From assembly GCA_031263125.1 (NCBI GenBank), contig JAISGL010000168.1, forward strand, positions 1-32,542: a stretch of 32,542 bases of DNA, given 5' to 3'. Made by a program: the position numbers and the translations under genes. The notes under the pieces are model-generated. The model was not told the DNA's origin. It saw nothing but the letters and a program-made list of their open reading frames with translations, and ran no database searches. Below, piece by piece: positions 1,395-26,595 of the stretch. This DNA comes from Opitutaceae bacterium. Its GTDB lineage: Bacteria; Verrucomicrobiota; Verrucomicrobiia; Opitutales; Opitutaceae. How positions within the stretch are numbered: the first letter of the stretch is position 1; the number at the start of each line of letters is the position of its first letter.

Positions 1395-1520
1395 CTGATG
1401 TTACGCAGCCGGCAGATTTCGTAGGGCCTGACCTTGTGTCAGGCCGCGAATTACCAGTGTGGCCTCCCACACGTGCGCGGCCTGACACAAGGTCAGGCCC
1501 TACGGGCTGCGTAACATCAG
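1395..1520. mobile_element. 126-bp palindromic frame element (CTGATGTTACGC TIR) carrying a family I REP pair
   Basis: Terminal IR ctgatgttacgcagccgg / gggctgcgtaacatcag; internal gtagggcctgaccttgtgtcaggcc (1421-1445) and its inverse (1479-1503); flanked on both sides by ttatatt. Confidence 0.8.
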
Positions 1521-6189: not shown

Positions 6190-6320
6190 GGATATGGGTG
6201 GAAAAGAGAGAGGAGGGAGGAGGGAGTGAGGGAATGAGTGATCCATCCCTTCCCTCATTCCTTCATTCCCTTATTCCCTCTCTCCCTCACTCTCTTATTC
6301 CCTCTCTCCCTCTCTCCCTT
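6190..6320. repeat. Polypurine/polypyrimidine low-complexity tract with direct repeats
   Basis: agagaggagggaggagggagtgagggaatgag ... then CT-rich; cttattccctctctccctc occurs at 6270-6288 and 6294-6312 (24-bp period). Confidence 0.7.
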
Positions 6321-6423
6321 ATCCGCAACTTTCCACGAGTTTCGTTTTCATACTGTCATATGCCCGCGTGTGTTGCGTCCCGCAGCCGATGCGATGCTTT
6401 TTCAAACAATACTTTTTCAAACA

Positions 6424-9406: not shown

Positions 9407-10414
9407 ATGCGAGGTTATCGAATAAAAATTTATGGCGAAGATGCGGTTTATCACTGCATCTCACGCACCGTTAACGGCGAGCGACTCTTTGACGAAGACT
9501 CAAAGGAAATGCTTCGCCGGCAGATTTGGAAGATCGCCGACTATTGCGGCGTTACCATTCTCACCTACGCCGTCATGGACAACCACTTCCACGTACTCGT
9601 CAAGGTGCCCAAAAAGGCTCCCGTCGACGATGCGGAGTTGCTGCGCCGTTACAGGTTGCTTTACCCCGAGCCGACCCGCTTTAAGGGCGCTTCGCTGGCC
9701 GTCGTCGAGGCCCAGCTCAAGGCGGGCGGAGCCGGCGCCGAGGCGTGGCGCAGGCAGCAGCTCGCGCTCATGAATGACGTCTCTGCTTTCATGAAGCTCC
9801 TCAAGCAACGCTTCACCATTTGGTTTAATAAAACGCATTCCCGCTATGGGACGCTATGGTCTGAACGTTTCAAAAGCGTGCTTGTCCAGCCAACCGGACG
9901 CGTTGTGCGGACCATGGCCGCATATATTGACTTGAATCCTGTGCGCGCCGGACTTGTCGAAGATCCAAAGGATTATCGGTTTTGCGGCTATGGCGAGGCG
10001 GTCGCGGGCAGAAACAAGGCGCGGGATGGAATCATGCTTGTCGTCGGCGAAGAATATGCGCGCACATGGAAGTGCGCCCATGACGGATATTACCGGCCCA
10101 TGCTCATGGGCAGTGGCGTCCAACCACGCGCAGGCAAGGCCCGTGTGCCGGAAAAACTCTTCGAGGAAACGTTGCGTGCGAAGGGAAAACTTCCGCTGGA
10201 AACCGTATTGAGATGCCGGATACGTTACTTTACCGAAGGAGTGGTGCTTGGGAGCAGGGATTTTGTTGCAAAACAACTCACGCTTTATTGCCGGAAGGCA
10301 GGACTGCGCCGCCGCAAGTTGCCCCGGACGCTGCCGCCGGTATGCGATTGGGGCAGTGCAGATGCGAATGATATTTCGATCATGCGCATGCCGAGGAAAC
10401 GGGCGCCCGGCTGA
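9407..10414 (+). CDS. REP-associated tyrosine transposase-like protein (Y1_Tnp / IS200-like HUH)
   Basis: YHCISRTVNGERLFDEDSKEMLRRQIWKIADYCGVTILTYAVMDNHFHVLVKVP (HxH), RYGTLWSERFKSVLVQ, AAYIDLNPVRAGLVEDPKDYRFCGYGEAVAG. Alternative start at 9362. Confidence 0.9.
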   Translation: MRGYRIKIYGEDAVYHCISRTVNGERLFDEDSKEMLRRQIWKIADYCGVTILTYAVMDNHFHVLVKVPKKAPVDDAELLRRYRLLYPEPTRFKGASLAVVEAQLKAGGAGAEAWRRQQLALMNDVSAFMKLLKQRFTIWFNKTHSRYGTLWSERFKSVLVQPTGRVVRTMAAYIDLNPVRAGLVEDPKDYRFCGYGEAVAGRNKARDGIMLVVGEEYARTWKCAHDGYYRPMLMGSGVQPRAGKARVPEKLFEETLRAKGKLPLETVLRCRIRYFTEGVVLGSRDFVAKQLTLYCRKAGLRRRKLPRTLPPVCDWGSADANDISIMRMPRKRAPG

Positions 10415-10672: not shown

Positions 10673-12576
10673 CCGGGAGCACCATCATTTTGTCGCAGCC
10701 GACAATCGCTCCAGATTTTCCTTTGCTTCCTGCAATCCGGGCTGCAAACGCAACGCCTCCCGCTCCTGCGCAATCGCCTCCTGTATCCGCCCGAGTTTTT
10801 CCAATGCGACAGCGTAACCATGGTGAATAACCGGCTGATAAGGCGCCAGTTTCAGCGCCTCTTCATATTGTGTCACCGCCCCGGCGTAACGCCCGCACTG
10901 CGTGAGAGCGACCGCATAATTATAGCGAATCTCCCCGCGCGCAGGCTCCGCGTTTACAGCCGCTTGATAATGCGGCAGGCTCTCCTCACCCCGGTTCAGG
11001 GCAACAAGAATATTCGCAAGCAGCACGTGATTCGACAAAGTATCCGGCACGGCATCCACCATCGCCTGCGCCAACGGTTGCGCAGACTCCGCATCTCCCT
11101 TTGCCATCAGCGCAACCGTCTGCCCGCCGACATGGCGCTGTCGCGAAGGGTCTTTCTGGAGGCAGATTTTATATTGTTCCGCGGCATCCTAATAACGCTG
11201 CAAATTATACAAAACATCCGCATAATTGATGCGGGCGCTGACGTCATTGGGAACGACCGCCAGTTCAGCCTCGAAATAGGGAATGGCCTCCTGCCAACGC
11301 CCCAACTGGGCGAGCAAGCGCGCCGCGTTGTCCTGAATATCCGCGCTCAACGGCGCAAGCGCCGCAGCTTTTTTATAATATTCCAACGCCTCCTCCAATT
11401 TGCCACCCTGCCGGGCTTTCACATTGCCCATGTTATTCAATGCCTCCGGATTCTTGTCATCAATCTCCAGCACTTTCTTGAAATAGCCCTCGGCCTTCGG
11501 AAGATTGTTTTTTGAATAACAGACATTTCCCATGACAATATATCCGGATGCCTTGTCCGGGAACATATCCAACAGCCGCCGGGCCATCCGCATGGTATCG
11601 TCAAATCGGCCCAATTTCATGAGCGCCTGGCAGTAGTTTGCAAGAAACACGTCCTCCAGTGCTATTTTTTTCTCGATGGACTGCTCATAATAATAAACAG
11701 CGTTTTCAAAGTCACCCATCGTCGCGTAGGCATGCCCCAGATTATTATAATGATCCCCGCGACCCGGATGAAGCGCGATGGCCTTTTCCAGATAGGGCAA
11801 TGCCTCATTTGCGCGCCTGCTTCGCACCAGCATATTGCCGACGTTCCCATTTGCCCGGGCACTTACCGGATATTTTTGCACAACATCCATCCATAGCGTA
11901 TCAGCATCGGCATAGACCTTGTTCCGCTCAAACGTCATCACGGTAAAAATCAGGACCACGGGCAATCCCACCCACAAAACACGCCTTGAAAGAAAATGAC
12001 ACCCCATCAAAACCACCGCCGCGACAACGGCGGTAAGCGGCAAATACATGCGATGCTCAGCGATAACCTGGGTCGCAACAGGGATCATTGTCGTCGTGGG
12101 CGCGAGCACGGCAAGATAAAATAACCCAAGCCAGCCCGCGCGTGGGTGCTTCCAATATAAAACGAAACATCCTGTTACAAATGCCATGGCAAACAATATC
12201 TGCCACCATACCTGTGCCGCGCTTGTATGCACAAAAAGACCGTAATCAAAAACCAACGGACATGGCACGATCGCGAGTTGCAGGTAGCGAACAAATGCCC
12301 AGCACTGGGACAGCGCGTAATACCACCATGTGATTTCAGGATCAGCAGAAAATCCAACTGTGTAACCCCGATTTCCCGTGCCAATCATGAGAAGCACCAG
12401 CGGAATTCACGCAAGCATAATGGAAATATGCCAACGCTTGCGTTGACGCAATGCCTCGCGAAGCGAATCGGAAATAAATGCGGCGTCGTAAAGAAAAAGC
12501 ATTATCGGAGTGGATACCATTACCTCCTTGGTCGCCATGCCGAGAAGGCAGAAAAAGACGGAGAGGATGAGCCAGA

Positions 12577-12670
12577 GTGTAGCATGGGCATTCTGCCCAT
12601 GTGCTGTTTTTTGTGGCACGGGCAACTTGTCCGTGGTTTTGGAAGACATGGGTTGGCAGACCGGGCAACC
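12577..12670. repeat. REP-like hairpin cluster, family IV, inside the TPR gene
   Basis: GTAG + CATGGGCA-ttc-TGCCCATG (12583-12601), then CACGGGCAACTTGTCCGTG (12616-12634) and GGGTTGgcagaccgggCAACC; translated in frame as GCPVCQPMSSKTTDKLPVPQKTAHGQNAHA within the TPR protein. Confidence 0.65.
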
Positions 12671-12740
12671 TCGAATGAAACAATACAGCGTCAGCAAATA
12701 AAACAGGGCCATGAGCGACTCGGCGCGTTGTATTATATAA

Positions 12741-12866
12741 CTGATGTTACGCGGACGGCAGGATTTTGTAGGGCCTGACCTTGTGTCAGGCCGCGCATGC
12801 GTAGGAGGCCGCACAGTAATTCGCGGCCTGACACAAAGTCAGGCCCTACGCGCCGCGTAACATCAG
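12741..12866. mobile_element. 126-bp palindromic frame element carrying a family I REP pair, inserted in the TPR gene
   Basis: ctgatgttacgcgg ... ccgcgtaacatcag; inner gtagggcctgaccttgtgtcaggcc (12768-12792) and inverse (12825-12849); flanked by direct TTATATAA on both sides. Same length as 1395-1520, with the central loop in opposite orientation. Confidence 0.85.
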
Positions 12867-13423
12867 TTATATAAGTAACCGACTCCGTTGCCAAAGGATG
12901 TGCCAGCCAGATCGCCGCCACGAGCCAGCCGAGCATGAAAGCGTTTTGCCCGAAGCGTTCGCGCAAGGCAGGCAACAGCAGCGTTCGGCGCACGACACCG
13001 AACAACGCAAGGCCGGCCAAAAAATGAATGAGCAGATTGCCCGCGTGATAACTCCACACGTCCAGCCCGCTAATTTTGTAATTGATCGCGAGCGTGAGAT
13101 TGAGCACCGGGCGGCCGCTGGCCGTCTCGCCTATTTTCAAGTCGGGAGTGAGCGCCGTGCGCCACTCACGGATGCTCATGTTGTCCTCTATGGAATAAAC
13201 ATCATCAAAGATGAAAGGACAATGGAACGTGTTGCCATAGGCGGCCAGAACGATAACAAGCAACGCGGCAGTTGCGAGCAGCATCTGCTGTTTTGTGACG
13301 GCAGCTTGCGTTACTTGTTTATTTTGAAACCGGGCCATGAAAACTGGCCAAAATTGGCCAGACCTGAAACTCGTAACTCAAGTAGAAAGAATGATCTTGC
13401 CTTGGATTATGAAATGGGAAGGT

Positions 13424-26133: not shown

Positions 26134-26206
26134 CTGATGTTACGCGACCGGCGGGGTTTTGCAGGGCCTGACACAAGGTCAGGCCCTACGCGCCGCGTAA
26201 CATCAG
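26134..26206. mobile_element. 73-bp frame element (copy A), collapsed family I cargo
   Basis: ctgatgttacgcgaccggc ... gccgcgtaacatcag; the 53-bp deficit relative to the 126-bp copies equals the distance between the two GGCCTGAC repeats in the full element. Confidence 0.8.
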
Positions 26207-26223
26207 TTATTAACACTAATTAA

Positions 26224-26507
26224 CTGATGTTACGCGACCGGCCTATCCTGGGAGCGCGGGCATCTTTGCCCGCGATGCGTTTTCGAAATGCTATATGCGG
26301 GCGCATGGCGTTTCGCGGGCAGAGATGCCCGCGCTCCCAGGAACGGAATGGCCTTCGCGTTATCCTCGCCCAAACGTAGCGCAGGCTGCCAAGCCTGCTT
26401 TGCCTGTCGCATGCCGCCGGGGGGGGCGTTTTTTTTCGAATCGGGCGCGGCTTCGCCTCGTCAGCTGGCTTGGCAGCCTGCGCTACGTATGTGCCGCGTA
26501 ACATCAG
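26224..26507. mobile_element. 284-bp frame element (copy B) carrying a family II pair plus a family III pair
   Basis: Same frame termini; family II pair 26248-26340 and family III pair 26375-26486; flanked on both sides by ttattaacactaattaa (26207-26223, 26508-26524). Confidence 0.85.
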
Positions 26508-26595
26508 TTATTAACACTAATTAAGCGGTATTGGACTTAAGTCGACTTAACTCGATTTAAGTCGCAAAACCCGCATCCCCCCCCTTTTCAGCCCT

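Follow-up and report, generated by a model that had tools for sequence, protein, structure and literature searches.

The window, a 32,542-nucleotide stretch of DNA comprising one contig of an Opitutaceae bacterium, carries a gene for a TPR-repeat membrane protein that is interrupted by a 126-bp palindromic element (Table 1). The element has perfect 12-bp terminal inverted repeats, CTGATGTTACGC and GCGTAACATCAG, and is flanked on both sides by the octamer TTATATAA, at exactly the positions given in an earlier note on this DNA. Its interior consists of two REPs, each a GTAG followed by a palindrome, in mutually inverted orientation, and the whole folds onto itself over almost its full length (-100.3 kcal/mol, z = -17); no transposase ORF was found within its 126 bp. 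The octamer equals its own reverse complement, so that one copy of the element would look the same whether the octamers were a target duplication or the outermost part of longer inverted repeats. This ambiguity is resolved by the family described below, which shows true target duplications.

Table 1. Coordinates of the interrupted gene, the inserted element and related features in the window
Feature	Position	Strand	Remark
TPR-repeat membrane protein gene	10685..13338	-	interrupted by the element and two in-frame stops
MITE, 126 bp, non-autonomous	12741..12866	-	copies 97-98% identical elsewhere in the genome
Target site duplication TTATATAA, first copy	12733..12740		from sequence
Target site duplication TTATATAA, second copy	12867..12874		from sequence
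Terminal inverted repeat CTGATGTTACGC, 12 bp	12741..12752	+	from sequence
Terminal inverted repeat GCGTAACATCAG, 12 bp	12855..12866	+	from sequence
REP type A, GTAG-tagged palindrome GTAGGGCCTGACCTTGTGTCAGGCC..., first arm	12768..12798	+	
REP type A, second copy, inverted	12819..12849	-	
Second 126-bp family element	1395..1520		duplication TTATATT
Shorter family member, 73 bp	26134..26206		
Family member of 284 bp, holding REP types B and C	26224..26507		
RAYT (REP-associated tyrosine transposase)-like gene	9407..10414	+	possible source of REPs, not of target duplications

Further members of the same family lie within the window. The 73-bp and the 284-bp elements are both followed by the same 17-bp TTATTAACACTAATTAA (26206-26524), which exceeds the normal duplications of this family in length and may stem from recombination between the adjacent elements. 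At positions 880-1080 and 1640-1930, towards the left end of the window, there are clusters of type B and type C REPs that are free or half-shelled, with an unpaired shell end at 1750-1761. Apart from these, a degenerate octamer tandem repeat (TCCCTCAT-like) is found at 6240-6330, at the start of a long beta-galactosidase-like ORF.

The earlier note had proposed that removing 134 bp, the element plus one octamer, would restore a single reading frame. The removal does join the flanking frames, with ESVTYI on one side and IQRAESLM on the other, but it does not restore the whole gene, as a TGA (12407-12409) and a TAG (11189-11191) follow in frame. With these two further stops the TPR gene is a pseudogene. 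In three genomes of the same genus (G001, G002, G003) the orthologues and paralogues of the gene lack the insert, and their uninterrupted sequence at this point is ESVTYIVQRAES or a close variant of it; the predicted empty site thus exists at the protein level, and the insert is not a conserved part of the protein. These sequences are about 48-73% identical to the window gene on the protein level, so that the DNA junction in the sister genomes is similar rather than identical. A neighbouring TonB-receptor gene is likewise kept beside the orthologue in G002.

What can be discerned from the other copies of the element? Exact ends (CGTAACATCAG) occur 777 times on both strands of the genome assembly (3.9 Mb in 489 contigs, 66% complete) as opposed to none for the reversed pattern used as a control, and none in the three same-genus genomes, a contrast that reflects a recent burst. 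In 0.70 Mb of contigs, taken in stretches, we found 93 left-right pairs of ends, 37 of them spanning exactly 126 bp. Exact flanking duplications of 7-9 bp accompany 37 of the 91 pairs with flanks on both sides, with 30 of 7 bp, six of 8 bp and one of 9 bp, while exact duplications of 5, 6 or 10 bp were absent from this set; shuffling the right flanks 2000 times gave a mean of 1.1 duplications and a maximum of 6. The remaining pairs, about 60%, lack an exact duplication, being copies that are old, recombined or mispaired. Read position by position, duplications of 7 bp yield the target consensus T-T-A-N-T-A-A. Adjacent elements are sometimes only 7 bp apart, and the loop of one type-A element has received another element, flanked by the duplication TTGGTAA, which provides an empty site within the genome itself. 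The family statistics therefore establish the octamer as a true target duplication, if in a minority form of 8 bp where 7 bp is the rule, and confirm the insertion in the TPR gene as a real transposon insertion. The proposal that the element is, or recently was, mobile is borne out by these duplications and by hundreds of copies in a genome whose same-genus relatives have none. In addition, contig ends in several metagenome-assembled genomes (MAGs) lie near this end sequence (L288-L298; contig starts of G076 and G064), and the shell, as we call the two ends irrespective of what they enclose, appears to be a frequent breaker of MAG assemblies.

The different REPs are tied to the shell to a different extent. 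In 0.52 Mb of contigs, 129 of 173 type-A cores lie between two ends and another 37 beside one, whereas only 2.9% of random positions fall between two ends. For type B, 27 of 109 cores are enclosed and 29 free, and for type C, 22 of 55 and 17, respectively; cores were matched with up to four differences, which admits a few chance matches among the free ones. Type A thus moves together with the shell, and types B and C are found outside it as well. Another REP fills the shell in G007, a genome from the same family; it has 64 exact cores there, about 11 of which lie near an exact end by a comparison of lists. For the interior unit of the shell in a Latescibacterota genome we counted about 40 matches; around half of these have no exact end close by, and many share their boundaries. 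Full copies of the interior repeat in an Acidobacteria genome lie mostly in shells, with a few partial copies outside. All counts of free repeats are upper bounds, as a copy with mutated ends is scored as free. In these other genomes the shell encloses palindromic repeats that are specific to the host. As a natural reading, the shell would have captured resident repeats of its hosts, and repeatedly so.

How far does the shell extend beyond this genome? We scanned one genome per species, 264 billion bases on two strands, for GCGTAACATCAGTTANTAA, a pattern with 18 fixed bases, and obtained at least 111 stretches compared with an estimated 8 or so by chance. Among the matches listed, they fall into Bacteroidota, Pseudomonadota, Campylobacterota, Acidobacteriota, Chloroflexota, Planctomycetota, Latescibacterota and others; the records include isolates, and many of the others are single MAG contigs for which misbinning is possible. 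Within its own phylum, the present genome is the only one of 390 with a match. The shell is also found in Thiomargarita MAGs.

In several of these lineages the same ends enclose a transposase. In a Neisseriaceae genome, a DDE transposase is carried by a copy of 1070 bp with the duplication TTATTAA; this transposase matches the NCBIfam model transpos_IS701_2 (NF049921) with E = 3.5e-64 and 217 bits, below the cut-off of 250, in a record with a run of N and an incomplete reading frame. DDE transposase genes bounded by shell ends on both sides were further found in Methylomonas (1091 bp), Ghiorsea (1110 bp, with an exact 7-bp duplication TTAAAAA), Hymenobacter and Acidobacteria (1374 bp). NF049921 itself has matches in 23 of 30 genomes tested, nine of them over the curated cut-off and not all with these ends. 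The seven transposases with shell ends share 39-74% identity with each other, as against about 23-35% with members that have other ends. They separate in all bootstrap trees from three transposases with TAGGACTT ends (L282, L283, L287), although the fork support of the seven-member clade (92/99) is below the tool's star; two members of this sister group show 5-bp duplications, AATTA and CAAGA. The motor of the shell is thus likely a DDE transposase of the transpos_IS701_2 kind. In the present genome we found no intact cognate gene (best family match 58.5 bits), and no transposase-bearing full-length copy between the end pairs of the contigs examined, the largest pair spanning 626 bp. In an assembly that is 66% complete and in 489 contigs such absence is weak evidence, and the motor may have been lost from this genome. 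What the genome does contain are three fragments of such transposases, with up to 82% identity to the one of Methylovulum across 38 amino acids. Matches to PF01609 in this genome and in G007 were listed as candidate motors.

Could the element instead be a REPIN or BIME moved by the RAYT encoded in the window, with its outer ends a mere extension of the palindrome? The RAYT-like gene is only 2.3 kb away, and an inverted pair of GTAG-tagged palindromes is what the element has as its interior. However, HUH transposases of the IS200/IS605 kind are not known to make target duplications, and we rejected the RAYT as the motor on account of the duplications seen in 37 of 91 pairs. Nor is the RAYT gene flanked by any of these REPs or by a shell end, and the occurrence of the shell around unrelated interiors, together with the DDE transposases enclosed by the same ends in other phyla, argues against mobilization by the RAYT, which we consider very improbable.

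A different objection concerns the identity of the DDE enzyme: the shell could belong to another DDE family that arrived at the same ends by convergence, its link to IS701-like elements being incidental. That no intact cognate gene was found in the genome would fit this, as would the duplications of mostly 4-5 bp reported for IS701 members (PMC8024623). Yet in several phyla, shells and copies with a transposase have the same ends, the same duplication length of 7 bp and the same TTANTAA target, and the fragments in the present genome are of that very transposase group, making convergence very improbable. That the insertion could be an artefact, a wrong join at a repeat within an intact TPR gene, is suggested by the fragmented assembly and by the many contigs that end in or near the repeat; but the two flanks are parts of one gene, in the correct order and at the correct distance as in G002, and a wrong join is not expected to create an exact duplication at a single site. 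We regard such an artefact as exceedingly improbable.

Our analysis therefore favors, with a probability of roughly 0.86, the reading that the window element is a MITE with a REP payload, moved in trans by a DDE transposase of the transpos_IS701_2 kind. Its basis in direct observation comprises the ends, the duplications, the target preference, the copy number, the uninterrupted orthologues and the same-end transposase genes in other phyla. In this scenario, an IS701-like insertion sequence would have provided both ends, of 12 bp each, of a non-coding shell around a pair of REP palindromes. The transposase would recognize the CTGATGTTACGC ends in trans, cut the shell out or copy it, and join it to staggered cuts, mostly of 7 bp but of 8 bp here, at A+T-rich, TTANTAA-like sites, thereby duplicating the target. 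One such event would have left the copy in the TPR gene, and we infer that a transposase of this kind moved it in the present genome. The REP pair was presumably picked up from the REPs resident in the host, after which it multiplied as a passenger of the shell.

On a broader scale, a single and nearly invariant transposon end, CTGATGTTACGC in combination with a TTANTAA target, might define a pan-bacterial, cross-mobilizable shell into which REP-like repeats resident in unrelated hosts were taken up time and again, which would make DDE transposases a general second route of REP and BIME spread besides RAYTs; we offer this as a tentative proposal, to which we give somewhat less than even odds. 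RAYTs are the usually proposed motor of REP and BIME multiplication, and a MITE shell that carries host REPs provides an alternative and testable route. The ends have stayed invariant from phylum to phylum, although identity among the transposases has fallen to about 40%; transposases and shells are therefore predicted to be interchangeable between hosts, and such shells may be findable with a 12-base probe. In the part of the literature searched, we met no description of an IS-type shell with REPs inside it, and a full-text search of the same partial scope gave no relevant paper with the shell 12-mer, although these ends may belong to an IS that already has a name.

Several known systems share individual traits with this element. 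GTAG-tagged palindromes in inverted pairs are the hallmark it has in common with REPs, BIMEs and REPINs associated with RAYTs (PMC2817692, PMC3116915, PMC3733652), and an abundance of GTAG repeats has been noted in O. terrae, a member of the phylum Verrucomicrobia (PMC3733652); here, however, the repeats sit in a DDE-type shell with target duplications, and type A is almost confined to the inside or the vicinity of shell ends. A physical association of IS and REP is also known from IS elements that insert into REPs (PMC1525189), but the nesting is reversed here, with the REPs inside the shell. The MITE in hupL of Candidatus Thiomargarita nelsonii, whose parent IS was not identified (PMC4853749), resembles the element in its high copy number and in breaking genes; its repeats differ in their published lengths, 10 bp for the direct and 19 bp for the inverted ones. 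To the IS701 family (NF049921) the link is provided by transposase genes that match its model and are bounded by the same 12-bp ends, although the window element has no transposase. Members of that family are reported to make duplications of 4 or 5 bp, with 4-9 bp for two in PMC8024623; as the published lengths are mostly 4-5 bp, the 7-bp duplication marks the present clade. A precedent for mobilization is MITEAba12, which is moved in trans by ISAba12, an IS sharing only its ends (PMC6382973). Both MITEs are short and non-coding, disrupt genes and have identity to an IS confined to the ends, and target duplications accompany 40% of the MITEAba12 copies (PMC6382973) and about 40% of the pairs here. 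What distinguishes the present family is its likely IS701-like motor, its 7-bp TTANTAA target, its hundreds of copies, its REP interior and the presence of its ends in many phyla.
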